From NCBI RefSeq assembly GCF_019972135.1, contig NZ_BPFI01000001.1, positions 1,471,106-1,535,105 of the forward strand: a DNA stretch of 64,000 nucleotides, written 5' to 3'. Source of the DNA: Sulfurovum sp. TSL1 (lineage in GTDB: Bacteria > Campylobacterota > Campylobacteria > Campylobacterales > Sulfurovaceae). How positions within the stretch are numbered: the first letter of the stretch is position 1; each line of letters opens with the position of its first letter. Shown here piece after piece: positions 50,733-56,234 of this stretch. The notes under the pieces were generated by a model. That model had not been told where the DNA came from. It saw only the letters and a program-made list of their open reading frames with translations, and searched no databases. The position numbers were made by a program, and so were the translations under genes.

Positions 50733-52775
50733 TTAAAATTTATATTTGATGTTCGTATAGAAATAACGTCCAGGTTCATTCATAAGTACGATATTAGAGT
50801 CTGCTGCTGATATACCTGCTGCAAGTAAACTTATATCTTTATATGTGTTTGTTACCGCATATGTTGTATCAAATACATTGTCTACACCTAGTGTGAACTC
50901 AAAGTGATTACCGAATTTCTTTGTACCTTTTAAGTTGAGGACTGCATATGCATCTAATTCCTGTTCACCATTATCTGCATCAAAATCTGTCCATTCATCA
51001 GACGCGATCACTTCCGCTCTCAATGCCAGACTCTCATCATAATCATAATTAACTGCACCATTGAATTTAAATGGTGGGATTTCCGGCATATCTGTATCTG
51101 TTTGTCCATATAAAGGATCTTGCTTTTTCCCTCTTTGGTAAGACATTCCATAATCGAAATAGACTGAATCTGTTGCGATATATGTTCCGCTAAGCTCAAC
51201 TCCCCATATTGTTGCATCAACATTTTCAAGATTATGACCATCTACTGTACCCGTTGAATTATACGCTATAAAATCATCCAACATGCTATAAAATGCTTTT
51301 GCTTTGATCGTTGCATTTTCATATTTCTTTTCAGCACCTAGATCAAACTCATAATTGACTGTATTCTCTAAATTCGGATTTCCTACAAAAGAAGGAGACC
51401 CATTACCCATCATTATCAAATATAGTTCTCTTGCATCAGGAACTCTTGATGACTTTCCAAAACCAGCATAATATTGTGTAGTTTCATTCGCATGATAGGT
51501 TCCCAATATATAACCATTCAGTTCATTATAGTCATTATCTGGTTGCAATACAGTGTTAGGATGTTCTGAAGTGATCTCTGTATCATCATATCTCATACCA
51601 AGATCTAAGACAAATTTATCCATTTTTATCTTGTCTTTCAAGAAGAGCGCAACATTCTTCGTATCTACGTCATTGATGGTTTTCATACCTGGTACACCCT
51701 CTTGATACATTCTTCCATCCCAGTTTCTCTTGCTGTAATCCAAACCAGCAGTAATAGTATGGTTATCTATATCAAAACTGTTTGAAAGTTTTGCTCCTTG
51801 CATCTTCGTAGTCAATGCATGTGTCATTTCATGCATCATAGCAGCTGATTTTCTATATTTATTTGACATTGGATGATCCACTTCAGATTGATAGACCTGA
51901 AAATTCAACTCTTTTGAATATGTTCCTAAATCTTTCGCTATATATTCCATGTTATAAATATCTGAATCATCATACAAGGCATCCATTTTAGATGAAGGGT
52001 AAAGGACATCATCACTTCTATTGGCTGTGTAGCTGAGTCTTAACTCCTGGTTATCTGTCATATCCCAAAAAAGTTTTGCCATCATGGTCTTTTTAGTATA
52101 GGCATCCATATCTCTATATTTATCTTGATAGGCACTATTTGCCAATTTCATATCTCCTGGATTATCAGCAATATAATTGTCTATCTGCTCTGCAAAATCA
52201 TTGCCATCACCATCTTCATACTGTTCACTTGTCTCTGTAGACCCACTGAGTAAAACTCTGACACTATCTGTGATCCCTCCACTAAGTGAAAATGCACCTT
52301 TTTTGTATCCCCAAGACCCTAAACCAAGATTCACTTCACCTTCAAACTTTTCTTTTGGTTTAACTGTATGAATTTTTACATCTGCACTAAGTACACCGAA
52401 ATCTTCTACATTGAACGGTCCTTCATTGATCTCAATATAATCCACGTTATTGGTCAAGATATGAGAAACAGGCGGGTCCATTCTGTTTGGACAGGCACCA
52501 TACACTTTCGTACCATCTACCGTCACATTAATATTGTCTTTTCTCTGCCCTCTAACAACGATATCATTTGCAATACCTGATCTTCTACTTAATGCAACAC
52601 TTGGTGACTGCTTAAAAAGTGCTTCTGCCAGATCGGCTGACTTAATGTCTTCTCCCCTGACATCTTTTATCACTTCTGTATCTACTTTTGTAGCTACGTT
52701 TATCGTTTCCAGCTCTACTTCGGCAGCATTCAAACACACTGAACATACCAAAGAAAGATAAATCCCTTTTTTCAT
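50733..52775 (-). CDS. OprC/NosA-like copper TonB-dependent outer-membrane receptor
   Basis: The 680-residue precursor (signal peptide MKKGIYLSLVCSVCLNAAEV) has a TonB-dependent plug (IVVRGQRKDNINVTVDGTKV, about 49-70) and a 22-strand barrel ending NIKYKF. In the plug, VYGACPNRMDPPVSHI holds a Cys-x3-Met pair, matching the copper-binding CxxxM motif of Pseudomonas OprC, where the same ACPxRMDPP context occurs. A barrel loop has MMHEMTHAL with a His-x-Met pair, like the second half of the OprC copper site. I infer copper import. Three tandem 11-bp-period repeats sit just upstream of its -10, and tonB is the next gene up. Confidence 0.82.
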   Translation of the reverse strand: MKKGIYLSLVCSVCLNAAEVELETINVATKVDTEVIKDVRGEDIKSADLAEALFKQSPSVALSRRSGIANDIVVRGQRKDNINVTVDGTKVYGACPNRMDPPVSHILTNNVDYIEINEGPFNVEDFGVLSADVKIHTVKPKEKFEGEVNLGLGSWGYKKGAFSLSGGITDSVRVLLSGSTETSEQYEDGDGNDFAEQIDNYIADNPGDMKLANSAYQDKYRDMDAYTKKTMMAKLFWDMTDNQELRLSYTANRSDDVLYPSSKMDALYDDSDIYNMEYIAKDLGTYSKELNFQVYQSEVDHPMSNKYRKSAAMMHEMTHALTTKMQGAKLSNSFDIDNHTITAGLDYSKRNWDGRMYQEGVPGMKTINDVDTKNVALFLKDKIKMDKFVLDLGMRYDDTEITSEHPNTVLQPDNDYNELNGYILGTYHANETTQYYAGFGKSSRVPDARELYLIMMGNGSPSFVGNPNLENTVNYEFDLGAEKKYENATIKAKAFYSMLDDFIAYNSTGTVDGHNLENVDATIWGVELSGTYIATDSVYFDYGMSYQRGKKQDPLYGQTDTDMPEIPPFKFNGAVNYDYDESLALRAEVIASDEWTDFDADNGEQELDAYAVLNLKGTKKFGNHFEFTLGVDNVFDTTYAVTNTYKDISLLAAGISAADSNIVLMNEPGRYFYTNIKYKF

Positions 52776-52798: not shown

Positions 52799-52804
52799 AT
52801 TATA
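52799..52804 (-). promoter_or_regulatory. -10 element of the OprC-like receptor gene
   Basis: TATAAT on the minus strand, 23 nt upstream of the ATG, abutting the gene-proximal repeat at 52805-52811. No -35 is present because the repeats occupy it. Confidence 0.6.
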
Positions 52805-52833
52805 GTGTCATAGTTGTGTTAATTAAGTGTTAA
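52805..52833 (-). promoter_or_regulatory. Direct-repeat regulator box A (three 11-bp-period half-sites)
   Basis: On the plus strand GTGTCAT (52805), GTGTTAA (52816) and GTGTTAA (52827) start exactly 11 bp apart. In the gene direction they read TTAACAC-N4-TTAACAC-N4-ATGACAC. This helical-phase tandem layout in front of a -10 is typical of OmpR/PhoB-type activators. Confidence 0.65.
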
Positions 52834-52835
52834 AT

Positions 52836-53609
52836 TTATCTGATCTGATAACGAAGTGTGATCTTTATACTTTTTGGTAGCGAAATAGGCGCATTTCTAA
52901 TATCTATAGGAAATGCACTTTGTACAGCCTGACGTGCGGACTTATGAAATACCGTAGGCCCACTTACAGATATATTCCCTACATTTCCATTTTTCAAAAT
53001 AGTGAATGCAACCTTGACCGTGCCCTGCATACCTCTTCTTTGTGCAATACGCGGATAGGATTTGTGCTTGTTGATTTTATCCCTGATACTTGCAAGAAAT
53101 TGATTTTTCTGTGCAGGGCTGATATTTGCGCTTCGTGAAGAAGCTTTTTGTCTTTTCTGTTTTTTCTTGGCACTTTTCTTGCTCGTTTTTTTCTTCGCTT
53201 TGGGTTTTGGTTTTTTCTTGACCTCTTTCACGATCGGTTTAGGTATCACTTTTTGTACCACTGGTTCAGGGATAAGCTCTTCTTTGACTTTAGGCTCTTG
53301 TTCCGGGGTAGGCTCTTTACTGATCTCAGGTTCAACAACAGGGTCTTCTTCAACCACAGGTTCTTCTTCAACAACAGGTTTCTCTACCTCTTGGACCTCT
53401 TCTATCTCCTCTTGTTCTGCCTGTTCTACGGAAGAAACGACTTCAGGTTGAAAGGAGCACAGACAAAGCTGTGTCGTTTTCTCTTCTATTTTTTTTGTTG
53501 CCACAAGATAACGATCCTCGACATAGAAAAACAAACCTATCATGAAAAGGTATACAAGGGTGGTGCTAAAATAAGAGATAAAATGACGATGTTTTAACAT
53601 ATTTAGCAT
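52836..53609 (-). CDS. tonB: TonB energy-transducing protein
   Basis: The 257-residue protein has one N-terminal membrane helix (about 10-28, FISYFSTTLVYLFMIGLFFY), a long Glu/Pro/Val then Lys/Pro-rich periplasmic spacer (about 55-150) and a TonB C-terminal domain: HKSYPRIAQRRGMQGTVKVA with GNISVSGPTVF. TonB couples the proton-motive force from ExbBD to outer-membrane receptors. exbB and exbD are not adjacent. It is next to the OprC-like receptor and most likely energises it. Two copies of the direct-repeat box lie upstream. Confidence 0.9.
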   Translation of the reverse strand: MLNMLKHRHFISYFSTTLVYLFMIGLFFYVEDRYLVATKKIEEKTTQLCLCSFQPEVVSSVEQAEQEEIEEVQEVEKPVVEEEPVVEEDPVVEPEISKEPTPEQEPKVKEELIPEPVVQKVIPKPIVKEVKKKPKPKAKKKTSKKSAKKKQKRQKASSRSANISPAQKNQFLASIRDKINKHKSYPRIAQRRGMQGTVKVAFTILKNGNVGNISVSGPTVFHKSARQAVQSAFPIDIRNAPISLPKSIKITLRYQIR

Positions 53610-53645
53610 AGAAAAGTCTTTTTTGGGATGTATTATGACGGAAAA

Positions 53646-53663
53646 ACGTTAAGGAAGTGTTAA
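53646..53663 (-). promoter_or_regulatory. Direct-repeat regulator box B
   Basis: Plus strand ACGTTAA (53646) and GTGTTAA (53657) 11 bp apart, 37 nt upstream of the tonB ATG. A CATAAT -10-like hexamer (53632-53637) lies just downstream on the minus strand. Confidence 0.55.
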
Positions 53664-53707
53664 AAAGCACAGAAGGAGTTGGTATTTAATGAGGGGGTGT
53701 CATCCAT
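53660..53707 (-). CDS. Possible 15-codon upstream ORF before tonB
   Basis: A short frame MDDTPSLNTNSFCAF then TAA, with AGAAGGTG about 8 nt before its ATG. It sits between the two repeat boxes upstream of tonB, and its stop codon lies within box B. It would only be on a transcript from the distal promoter (box C). Translation is unproven and chance is quite possible. Confidence 0.25.
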   Translation of the reverse strand: MDDTPSLNTNSFCAF

Positions 53708-53766
53708 ATACAAAGCACCTTCTGCGTTCCACTTATTTCGACGTAAAAGAATTATGACGAAGAAGT

Positions 53767-53784
53767 GTTAATTTAGTGTTAAGC
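53767..53784 (-). promoter_or_regulatory. Direct-repeat regulator box C
   Basis: GTGTTAA (53767) and GTGTTAA (53778), exact 11-bp period on the plus strand, with CATAAT at 53751-53756 downstream on the minus strand. It lies about 160 nt upstream of tonB and 33 nt after the DUF2202 stop, apparently a second, distal promoter. The stretch between it and tonB holds box B and a possible short ORF. Confidence 0.6.
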
Positions 53785-53816
53785 GCAATGAACACTTCTG
53801 TTTAATTTGATCTTTT

Positions 53817-54533
53817 TTAGTTTCTTGGATACGTAGGACATGCAGTGTGACCAAGGTCTTTGGCCATCTGACAACACCCCTCTTCCACTCCCATACCTAC
53901 CAGTGCATCATTAAATGCCCAGTAATGCGTATAACTTCCATTTCGTAAAAAGTTAAAGACAGTTAGAATATCCGTAGCATTCGCTTCTTTTGCTAACGTT
54001 ATATAGTGATTTAAATCATCAATATCCACAACTTCGACCGTACATCCAACTTCTAAAGCATTTTGCCTTGAAGATATTCCCTTTTCATAGAGCGTCGTAT
54101 AAAGGTTCTGTACGGGTGCTACCGGATATGTACCATTCCCGATTCCCTCTATACTATAAGGATGGTCTGTATCTGGATACTGAGTCATATTGAGATCATA
54201 CTTCTGTGCAACCTGATTCACAGCTTCTGTATGTTTCACTTCGGATTTTGTTGCAATATTTTGAAGTTGTATCACCGCTTGTTCTTTATAAAGAGCCAGA
54301 TACAGATCGTGTGCCAGCCCCTCTTCACTGTACATATGCGTAATCGCATCCTTTAGTTCTTGAGCCTCTGTCAGGTCAGAGCTTTCTCCATCTATCGCAG
54401 CTTGCACATTGGCTGGCAGTTCAATAGCTGTTGCCAATTCTTCTGTCCCCGAAAGATTAGATTCTCCTCCGCAACCTACTATCATAAAAACTGCACTTAC
54501 AAGCCCTAGACTTTGAACCAATTTATTCTTCAT
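53817..54533 (-). CDS. DUF2202 ferritin-like lipoprotein
   Basis: The 238-residue precursor has a lipobox-like VGCGG (Cys about 21). The mature protein matches DUF2202, a four-helix ferritin-like domain: TEAQELKDAITHMYSEEGLA (about 56), DLYLALYKE, ATKSEVKHTEAVNQVAQKY with Glu and His metal-ligand candidates (about 110), and NFLRNGSYTHYWAFNDAL (about 200). Cysteines at the end (GCCQMAKDLGHTACP) could bind metal. Function is unknown; the fold suggests metal binding or oxidation, fitting its place beside a copper receptor. It has its own direct-repeat box. Confidence 0.75.
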   Translation of the reverse strand: MKNKLVQSLGLVSAVFMIVGCGGESNLSGTEELATAIELPANVQAAIDGESSDLTEAQELKDAITHMYSEEGLAHDLYLALYKEQAVIQLQNIATKSEVKHTEAVNQVAQKYDLNMTQYPDTDHPYSIEGIGNGTYPVAPVQNLYTTLYEKGISSRQNALEVGCTVEVVDIDDLNHYITLAKEANATDILTVFNFLRNGSYTHYWAFNDALVGMGVEEGCCQMAKDLGHTACPTYPRN

Positions 54534-54577
54534 GGATACATACCTTCTATATTTATTTTCAGTATCTTATCCTCAAA

Positions 54578-54595
54578 GTGTTAAGTAAGTGTGAA
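54578..54595 (-). promoter_or_regulatory. Direct-repeat regulator box D
   Basis: GTGTTAA (54578) and GTGTGAA (54589), 11 bp apart on the plus strand, 45 nt upstream of the DUF2202 start. A TAAGAT or GATACT -10-like element follows on the minus strand (54561-54569). Confidence 0.55.
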
Positions 54596-54605
54596 ATTGA
54601 TAATA

Positions 54606-55454
54606 TTAAACGGCGTGTACCTTTGACATATTTAAACTCACGGTTGTCCCAACACCTTTTTCCGACTTGAAATGGATCTCTATCCCCTCTTCATCACAAT
54701 ATGCTTTAACCAAAGCAAGCCCTATACCTTCTCCGTCTTTTCTATCATCTGCCTGATAATAGCGCTCATGCACACGTAAAAGCTCTGTGGTACCCATACC
54801 CACTCCCTGATCTTCCACACTTAAGATATGATTATCCAATGTGACCTTTATCGGTGCATCCCTGGAGGAGTACTTCATTGCATTGGAAACAATATTGTCA
54901 AACATCTGTTCAAACCCTATCTTGTCCACTTCTATCTCATACTGTTCCAGACTGAGTTCAAAAGGATTTCGTTTCTGATCTTTGAACACTTCGATCCGCT
55001 CTTCAATTAACGATTGAAGAGCAAAACGTTCTTTTTCTATCGTATGCATCTCTTTATGAATACTATAGACCAACTCATCATAGAGTTTTTTCAGTCTTAC
55101 ACTGGCATCTTCTATACGCTTGATACGCTTTAAGGATTTTTCATCATCCATGGTTTTTTTTAACATGGCGGTATTGGCTTTGATCGTAGAAAGAGGAATG
55201 TTGAGTTCATGAATAATGTCATTGGTCAGAGATGTCAATGTATCTTCCATCTGTTTTTTAGGCGCAAAGATAAGTGCAGAGAGCACATACCCCCATCCTA
55301 TGGCCACCAGTAGAACCAAGGCACCGGCTATAAAAAAATTAACTTCAATAATATTCCAATTGCCTAAAAAACGATACACAGCAGTAAGCAGCGTAAACAT
55401 GGTCACAAAGTAAATGACCGTACCGAAAATGATCTCTTTTTTACGACTCAGCAT
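54606..55454 (-). CDS. Two-component sensor histidine kinase
   Basis: The 282-residue kinase has two membrane helices (about 10-28 and 37-60) with almost no periplasmic loop, so it probably senses within the membrane or through a partner. The phospho-acceptor is in LTNDIIHELNIPLSTIKANT (HELN, about residue 78). The HATPase domain has FDNIVSNAMKYSS (N box), VEDQGVGMG (G1) and EGIGLALVKAYC (G2). I take the ATG at 55454 over one at 55469, because AAAGGATGTGAA precedes it. Its ribosome binding site is inside a hairpin. Response regulator lies upstream. Confidence 0.88.
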   Translation of the reverse strand: MLSRKKEIIFGTVIYFVTMFTLLTAVYRFLGNWNIIEVNFFIAGALVLLVAIGWGYVLSALIFAPKKQMEDTLTSLTNDIIHELNIPLSTIKANTAMLKKTMDDEKSLKRIKRIEDASVRLKKLYDELVYSIHKEMHTIEKERFALQSLIEERIEVFKDQKRNPFELSLEQYEIEVDKIGFEQMFDNIVSNAMKYSSRDAPIKVTLDNHILSVEDQGVGMGTTELLRVHERYYQADDRKDGEGIGLALVKAYCDEEGIEIHFKSEKGVGTTVSLNMSKVHAV

Positions 55455-55459
55455 TTCAC

Positions 55460-55482
55460 ATCCTTTCATTTAGTGAAAGGAT
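55460..55482 (-). promoter_or_regulatory. Hairpin sequestering the histidine kinase ribosome binding site
   Basis: On the transcript ATCCTTTCA, a 5-nt loop CTAAA, and TGAAAGGAT form a perfect 9-bp stem. The right arm contains the AAAGGA ribosome binding site of the kinase gene, 5 nt before its ATG. A second hairpin in the same gap (55531-55549, TAAATCA and TGATTTA) has an equivalent loop. Confidence 0.55.
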
Positions 55483-55580: not shown

Positions 55581-56234
55581 TCATTTGATGCTTATCTGGT
55601 ACCCTACACCACGTACATTCTGTATCTGTGTAGGAAAATATTTTTTAAGTTGTGCGATATAGACTCTTAACGCTCCGTCACTGGATTCTTCCGAAGAGCT
55701 CCAAAGACGTTCTTTGATCTGGTCTAAAGGAACGACCCGCCCCTGACCTTCTAACAATGCAAGAAGCAGTTCACTCCCCTTAAGACTCAACTCCAATGCT
55801 TTATCGTTCTGATACAGGGTCTTCGTCAAGATATCGAACTGATATGTCCCTATCTCTACAAGTCGACTCCGTACCTGCCGGCGTAACACTGCCTGAATAC
55901 GCAAGAAAAGTTCATCCAGATCAACGGGTTTCTGGATATAATCATCCCCTCCTTTTTCAAATCCCTCTTTTAACGATGTTTTGTCTTCTCGGGATGTAAT
56001 AAAGATACAAGGTGTTTCATCACCGCTTTGACGTAATTTTTCTAAAAGTTCAAAACCGTTTTCATACGGTAGATTGACATCAAAAAGATAGAGGTCGAAC
56101 ACATGTTCATAGGTGAGATCAAGTGCACTGTAAGGATCTAAAGCACAATGTAAAACATGTCCCTCTTCTTCTAAAAAATCTTCCAGGGTTTCATTGAACA
56201 ATTTGTCATCTTCTAATACCAGTATCCGTGCCAA
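55581..56234 (-). CDS. OmpR-family response regulator
   Basis: The 217-residue protein has a receiver domain (MARILVLEDDKLFNETLEDF) with the acceptor Asp in LYLFDVNLPYENGFELL (about 51), Thr/Ser in CIFITSRE and Lys in IQKPVDLDELF. The C-terminal winged helix contains LSLKGSELLLALLEGQGRVV and SDGALRVYIAQLKKYFPT, then NVRGVGYQI. It starts with TTG after AAAGGAAAGTA. It precedes the kinase in the same direction. PhoB/OmpR-type wings bind direct repeats of 10-11 bp, the pattern found upstream of the nearby receptor, tonB and DUF2202 genes. Confidence 0.92.
   Translation of the reverse strand: MARILVLEDDKLFNETLEDFLEEEGHVLHCALDPYSALDLTYEHVFDLYLFDVNLPYENGFELLEKLRQSGDETPCIFITSREDKTSLKEGFEKGGDDYIQKPVDLDELFLRIQAVLRRQVRSRLVEIGTYQFDILTKTLYQNDKALELSLKGSELLLALLEGQGRVVPLDQIKERLWSSSEESSDGALRVYIAQLKKYFPTQIQNVRGVGYQISIK

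Follow-up and report, generated by a model that had tools for sequence, protein, structure and literature searches.

The 64-kb window, the whole stretch of Sulfurovum DNA that was analysed, carries on its minus strand a cluster consisting of a response regulator, a histidine kinase, a DUF2202 gene, tonB and a gene for a TonB-dependent receptor. The regulator (55581-56234, minus strand) matched PF00072 and PF00486 above cut-off, and its receiver phosphorylation residues together with a Trans_reg_C winged helix place it in the OmpR/PhoB family. Residues D9/D10, D52, T80/S81 and K102 were invariant in 15 orthologues, indicating an intact phosphorylation site in the receiver. Its named relatives came mostly from Sulfurovum and Sulfurovaceae genomes, one of them (G027) lying on a contig of Sulfurovum sp. 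AR, of the same genus as the window genome. The adjacent kinase (54606-55469, minus strand; PF00512 and PF02518) is small, with a short hydrophobic N-terminus and two membrane helices joined by a loop of approximately 10 residues, and has no sensor domain. No conserved Cys, Met or His metal ligands were found in its membrane region among 93 aligned orthologues. One cysteine, C258, located just past the G2 box of the ATPase domain, was invariant in the 93 orthologues and is a possible sensing residue.

The other members of the cluster, also on the minus strand, are a DUF2202 lipoprotein-like gene (53817-54533; PF09968), tonB (52836-53609; PF03544 and TIGR01352) and the receptor gene (50733-52775; PF00593 and PF07715). 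The best solved relative of the receptor was Pseudomonas aeruginosa OprC (6fok), whose copper ligands are C143, M147, H323 and M325 (PMC8610252). When the receptor was aligned to 6fok, C95, M99, H301 and M303 fell on these four residues, and the CxxxM-HxM pattern is kept. The score against the TIGR01778 equivalog was 196 bits, far below the cut-off of 472.45, and the receptor is therefore named OprC-type only.

Tandem boxes with a fixed -10 element

The sequence TTAACAC-N4-TTAACAC was found on the minus strand exactly at 52816-52833, upstream of the oprC-type gene, and at 53765-53782, with one mismatch at 54578-54595, upstream of the DUF2202 gene (conserved in the relatives G003, G027 and G001), and with two mismatches at 53646-53663, proximal to tonB and kept in relatives. 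The original prediction had described four repeat boxes of 11-bp period, all of which exist, the one given at 53767/53778 being two positions off and correctly placed at 53765/53776. It had also noticed no further paired copy, and at up to two mismatches the only other site in the 64 kb was indeed the overlapping register at 52805-52822. Three boxes with at most one mismatch were present in the window compared to 0.05 expected, a number reached in none of 100 shuffles, and a search for box plus -10 at up to three mismatches returned exactly the four boxes (0.05 expected).

A -10-like hexamer lies exactly 8 nt past each of the four boxes: CACTAT at 52802-52807 (oprC-type gene), CATAAT at 53632-53637 (tonB), CATAAT at 53751-53756 (the box at 53765) and TAAGAT at 54564-54569 (DUF2202). 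The presence of such hexamers had been predicted, with a spacing of 9-12 nt or adjacent that was not borne out. The fetched loci gave 118 non-redundant exact boxes, found without use of the -10, and these showed a strong -10 at one offset, the hexamer starting 8 nt past the end of the box and having A as its second base in 89% of cases and T as its sixth in 82%; [TC]AnnnT was present at this offset in 70% of the boxes compared to 1-20% at other offsets. The linker between the heptamers showed a preference for W-N-A-N. Because the -10 is at a fixed offset of 8 nt, the box would be located at about -38 to -21, replacing the -35. In class II activation by PhoB/OmpR-type regulators the box takes the place of the -35, and the pho box consists of 7+4+7 direct repeats. 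The 7+4+7 direct repeat, the 11-bp period and the fixed distance to the -10 agree with the proposal of this geometry without a -35. The box, the 8-nt gap and the -10 form a single promoter element, TTAACAC-N4-TTAACAC-N8-YATAAT.

A third heptamer upstream of the oprC-type gene, ATGACAC (52805-52811, minus strand), had been counted as a third repeat, but it overlaps the oprC -10. In two relatives (G003 and G027) the offset-8 hexamer retains its A and T while that at offset 11 is without its final T, so the heptamer is more likely promoter than operator. It was judged to be mostly the -10, and an operator role is unlikely.

Distribution of the boxes and the genes behind them

When 60 relatives were scanned by pattern search, 67 exact boxes were found compared to 4 matches to the reversed pattern. 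In 80 named Sulfurovum loci, covering 1.12 Mb around the regulator, there were 55 boxes with at most one mismatch and 1 control match, and only 1 box lay within coding sequence. The 55 boxes preceded OprC-type receptor genes (26), tonB (9), DUF2202 genes (2) and others (4); for the remaining 14, several of which were at locus ends, no gene was called within 300 nt. Neither random scatter nor loss of the boxes from relatives keeping the cluster, the two outcomes that the original prediction had set against itself, was observed, and boxes persisted upstream of oprC, tonB and DUF2202.

The proposed link between the boxes and the regulator at 55581-56234 was borne out by linkage within the genus, by gene neighbourhoods in other families and by co-occurrence. 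Within the genus, 15 of 57 boxes were at most 5 kb from a regulator orthologue compared to 0.3 expected, with a p value that is only indicative because related genomes are not independent. In two genomes (G008 and G031) oprC-tonB and the regulator are on separate contigs, and the boxes remain with the target genes. Across 249 genomes, an exact box was present in 72 of the 145 with a regulator match (E <= 1e-48) compared to 5 of the 104 without one, while the reversed control gave 16 and 3, respectively. Among the five exceptions, at least two (G198 and G274) have a more divergent regulator-kinase pair adjoining exbB. In other families the pair adjoins exbBD, tonB or receptor genes. In family f8 its neighbours are exbB-exbD or a TonB-dependent receptor gene, and boxes precede exbB or the receptor gene (L268 and L269); at L270 the nearest box precedes a DsbD_2 gene. 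The regulator tree leaves deep branches, and orthology in other families, unsettled, and orthology there consequently rests on gene neighbourhood. A box 21 nt upstream of a regulator-OprC-ExbB-ExbD operon in G224 suggests autoregulation; in the window, no box was found upstream of the regulator. A 94%-complete MAG (G011) carries oprC with a one-mismatch box, yet no close match to the regulator was found in it. The box region of one locus (L255) from a genome placed in another family (G205) is nearly identical to that of Sulfurovum locus L145 (G008), probably reflecting MAG contamination.

The original description of a local regulon was not upheld, since boxes occur genome-wide and order-wide. 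Beyond the window, the same genome carries boxes upstream of a second receptor gene, TBDR2 (C1:14282), a multihaem cytochrome lipoprotein gene (C1:689462), exbB-exbD (C1:1023059) and a DsbD_2 gene (C1:256483). Across the order, the boxed genes are largely copper genes, encoding OprC-type receptors with CPNRMD, TonB, ExbB/ExbD, NosL and DsbD_2 and, in relatives, a multicopper oxidase, an HMA protein and PCuAC, the last followed by SCO1; the boxed TBDR2 is followed by a Fer4_5 membrane protein. Boxes were also found upstream of genes without an evident copper role (NlpC/P60, DHH and uncharacterized lipoproteins). These findings show that the 18-base boxes are real promoter elements marking a copper-acquisition gene set throughout the order.

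Several further features were observed at the boxed loci. Inverted boxes were present just 3' of the OprC-type gene at L118:18271, L121:19615, L124:8867, L155:3511 (minus strand) and L091:1501, with no clear -10 and no called gene behind, and similar ones near the kinase end at L189, L195, L198, L202, L211 and L213. Three loci (L282, L287 and L303) carry a box upstream of a weakly bd-like cytochrome (PF01654 subunit I, below cut-off) fused to a c-type domain, which could be a copper-independent substitute oxidase; the boxed gene at L267 resembles it and has no Pfam match. The NosL promoters at L259, L260 and L261 are followed, approximately 20-100 nt after the box, by a long structured leader in which an AAGATAC/GTATCTT stem encloses a common CCTACTAC stretch. 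At L119, L123, L129, L155 and L157 the boxed gene encodes a NosL-family protein whose N-terminus carries an MKC-x3-KCG motif, and the same motif, as MKCAPGKCG, ends the DsbD_2 protein of the window's genome (L005); the motif is possibly metal-binding. At C2:249200 (L393) of the same genome, a porin gene beside another regulator-kinase pair is preceded by a related box, TTTACAC-N4-TTTACAC, whose -10 is spaced identically; this may be a paralogous system that uses a box of its own.

A candidate RNA and its predicted pairing with coxA

The boxes had been placed upstream of the oprC-type, tonB and DUF2202 genes, but a plain tonB promoter is too simple a reading for the one at 53765, which lies 156 nt upstream of that gene and is separated from tonB's own box at 53646 by a terminator-like hairpin. 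It appears to drive a terminated candidate RNA of about 81 nt (53662-53742, minus strand) with a 5' seed GUCGAAAUAAGU, a hairpin and a U tract. Twelve such units were collected by the core TCGAAA, and GTCGAAATAA, downstream of the -10, was identical in 11 of them. The conserved 5' end is GUCGAAAUAA, in which 10 nt are invariant while the stem of the hairpin varies between genomes and folds better than shuffled sequences (mean z -3.2). Most units then have a U tract, the end of which is at or close to tonB's own box; the entire unit of G031 measures 40 nt. The candidate thus has its own promoter, a terminator and a conserved seed complementary to the start region of a target, as small RNAs do, and no Rfam covariance model matched 53662-53742 up to E = 5.

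The 2.35-Mb genome contains three copies of TTATTTCGAC, the reverse complement of the seed: one in the RNA gene itself, one at codons 4-7 of coxA and one at the start of ridA. The coxA gene encodes a heme-copper oxidase subunit I (COX1 match, E 3e-151) and has a SCO1-like gene upstream. The predicted duplex between the candidate RNA and coxA reached -18.7 kcal/mol compared to -12.9 kcal/mol for the best of 57 window genes. The site was intact, with 11-13 contiguous pairs, in seven of seven genomes that had the RNA and in which the start of coxA could be read, and in G022 and G031 codon 4 of coxA and the RNA had changed in matching ways. In contrast, the exact site was lost in four of the five genus genomes that have this coxA without a detected RNA, including the close relatives G012 and G019 (Fisher p 0.01, in a small sample and in a comparison made once the seed was known). 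L179 has a comparable unit without tonB, whose variant seed GTCGAAAAAGGC would predict GCCTTTTTCGAC in coxA, and the RNA of L174 would predict the coxA-start sequence AGTTATTTCGAC. The 10-nt match at the ridA start (L366:1501-1530, minus strand; L365; L382), the only other seed site, is in the same place in G003 and G027 and may be a second target or chance.

There is an appreciable, if lesser, probability that the unit at 53662-53742 is the terminator of the upstream operon or a leader of tonB and that its match to coxA is a coincidence. It does sit between DUF2202 and tonB and end in a terminator-like hairpin, the RNA itself is predicted, and the YFD codons are conserved in coxA anyway. Against this, the unit has an exact box and a -10 of its own, its 5' end is held constant as the stem changes, one of just three genomic copies of the 10-mer complement falls in coxA, and TAT-TTC-GAC is a choice of about 5% under local codon usage; the matched changes in G022 and G031 and the loss of the site where no RNA was detected point the same way. 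A candidate copper-sparing RNA of this kind could turn down the copper-consuming oxidase when copper is scarce.

Proposed control of the boxes and comparison with known systems

The adjacent two-component system very probably switches the boxes on. In the proposed mechanism, the small kinase would phosphorylate the regulator, a dimer of which would bind TTAACAC-N4-TTAACAC head to tail at about -38 to -21, substitute for the -35 and recruit RNA polymerase to the -10 exactly 8 nt downstream. The regulon would comprise copper acquisition and delivery, that is, the OprC-type receptor, TonB/ExbBD, the second TonB-dependent receptor and DsbD_2, with NosL, PCuAC-Sco1 and other copper proteins added in relatives. 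Copper limitation is suggested as the inducer because of the functions of the targets and the reported repression of OprC and NosA by copper. Under scarcity, the 5' end of the short terminated RNA may pair with the coxA coding start and probably lower synthesis of the copper-requiring oxidase. We consider it likely that the boxes are operators of the regulator acting with this kinase, that they define a copper-acquisition regulon most probably induced by copper scarcity, and that one of them drives an RNA pairing with coxA. The kinase without a visible copper site, the lack of a box before the window's regulator, the G011 genome, the boxed genes with no obvious link to copper, the targets that would suit copper excess equally, the regulator tree and the small number of genomes behind the RNA evidence weigh against this explanation.

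It is unlikely that the same boxes and regulator serve instead a response to excess copper, envelope stress or redox stress, in the manner of CopRS, CusRS and CrdRS. The boxed multicopper oxidase and HMA protein of relatives would also fit copper excess, and the same phylum includes a copper-responsive pair, Helicobacter pylori CrdRS; however, importers and delivery proteins make up the main targets (OprC, TonB, ExbBD, NosL and PCuAC-Sco1), copper represses OprC and NosA, and the kinase is without a periplasmic domain. It is more improbable still that the boxes are bound by a different regulator, either that of a second regulator-kinase pair found beside the first in many relatives or an orphan of the HsrA/CosR type. 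Although the genome holds 15 OmpR-type winged-helix matches and the site of HP1043 is likewise a tandem of 11-bp period, the second pair is missing from the window cluster and from the box-keeping loci of G003, G027, G022, G013 and G030, several families without a close regulator match have no exact boxes, and the box sequence differs from that of HP1043; HsrA/CosR as the box binder was judged unlikely on co-occurrence and motif. Chance repeats in AT-rich genomes, a reading favoured only by a search relaxed to three mismatches in which the window excess vanished (11 compared to 8 expected), can be dismissed on the reversed-pattern controls, the fixed -10 offset and the window statistics.

Bacterial sensing of copper scarcity and the control of outer-membrane copper import are poorly known, and the present analysis names a kinase-regulator pair and supplies an exact operator sequence, its promoter spacing and a list of genes, for a phylum of importance at hydrothermal vents. 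Should the small RNA prove real, it would spare copper and have, in a terminal oxidase gene, a target site that covaries with it. No earlier description of TTAACAC repeats, of copper-starvation two-component systems in this phylum or of copper-sparing RNAs was found in the open-licence literature, which is weak evidence of absence.

The boxes resemble those of PhoB/OmpR class II systems in being 18-bp tandem repeats of 11-bp period with a downstream -10, no -35 and an OmpR-family activator, and differ in their TTAACAC sequence, in serving copper rather than phosphate genes and in a kinase without an evident sensor domain. Membership in a Pho regulon was rejected, given the copper and TonB targets and a score of 103.8 bits against TIGR02154 (PhoB; cut-off 296.2). 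H. pylori HP1043 (HsrA) and Campylobacter jejuni CosR are OmpR-family proteins of the same phylum, and the HP1043 site, TTTAAG-N5-TTTAAG, has an 11-bp period and overlaps promoters (PMC8345958). HP1043 is, however, an orphan whose receiver is degenerate and whose motif and regulon are different, whereas the regulator of the window retains an intact receiver and comes with a kinase. Copper genes are likewise under OmpR-type two-component control in H. pylori CrdRS and in CopRS/CusRS (PMC9449129, PMC7558416), but these systems answer copper excess and drive resistance or efflux, whereas the targets here serve import and delivery. Membership in CopRS/CusRS was rejected on the scores (117.3 compared to a cut-off of 279.2 bits for TIGR01387, and 57.7 compared to 292.55 bits for TIGR01386) and on the kinase, whose short loop leaves it without a periplasmic metal-binding sensor domain.

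The receptor shares TonB-dependent copper import with OprC/NosA and CrtA, its ligand pattern being that of OprC (PMC8610252), and CrtA operons can include PCuAC and ScoI (PMC12914433). In P. aeruginosa, oprC has been reported to be under CueR (PMC7558416), while according to PMC8610252 the way in which copper stress lowers its expression has yet to be explained. Bordetella crtA is controlled post-transcriptionally by CruR, in contrast to the two-component box described here. RyhB-type RNAs belong to a metal-limitation regulon and pair near the start of the mRNA for a metal-consuming enzyme. The candidate RNA is predicted to act in the same way, and differs in that it would serve copper instead of iron, is preceded by a response-regulator box, has its seed at the extreme 5' end and matches no Rfam family. 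The fuller proposal, of a copper-scarcity two-component system working through TTAACAC boxes across Campylobacterales and, in Sulfurovum, also through a copper-sparing RNA repressing coxA by way of codons 4-7, with which it would pair, is put forward tentatively, with nearly even chances of being right, as a copper counterpart of the iron/RyhB logic.
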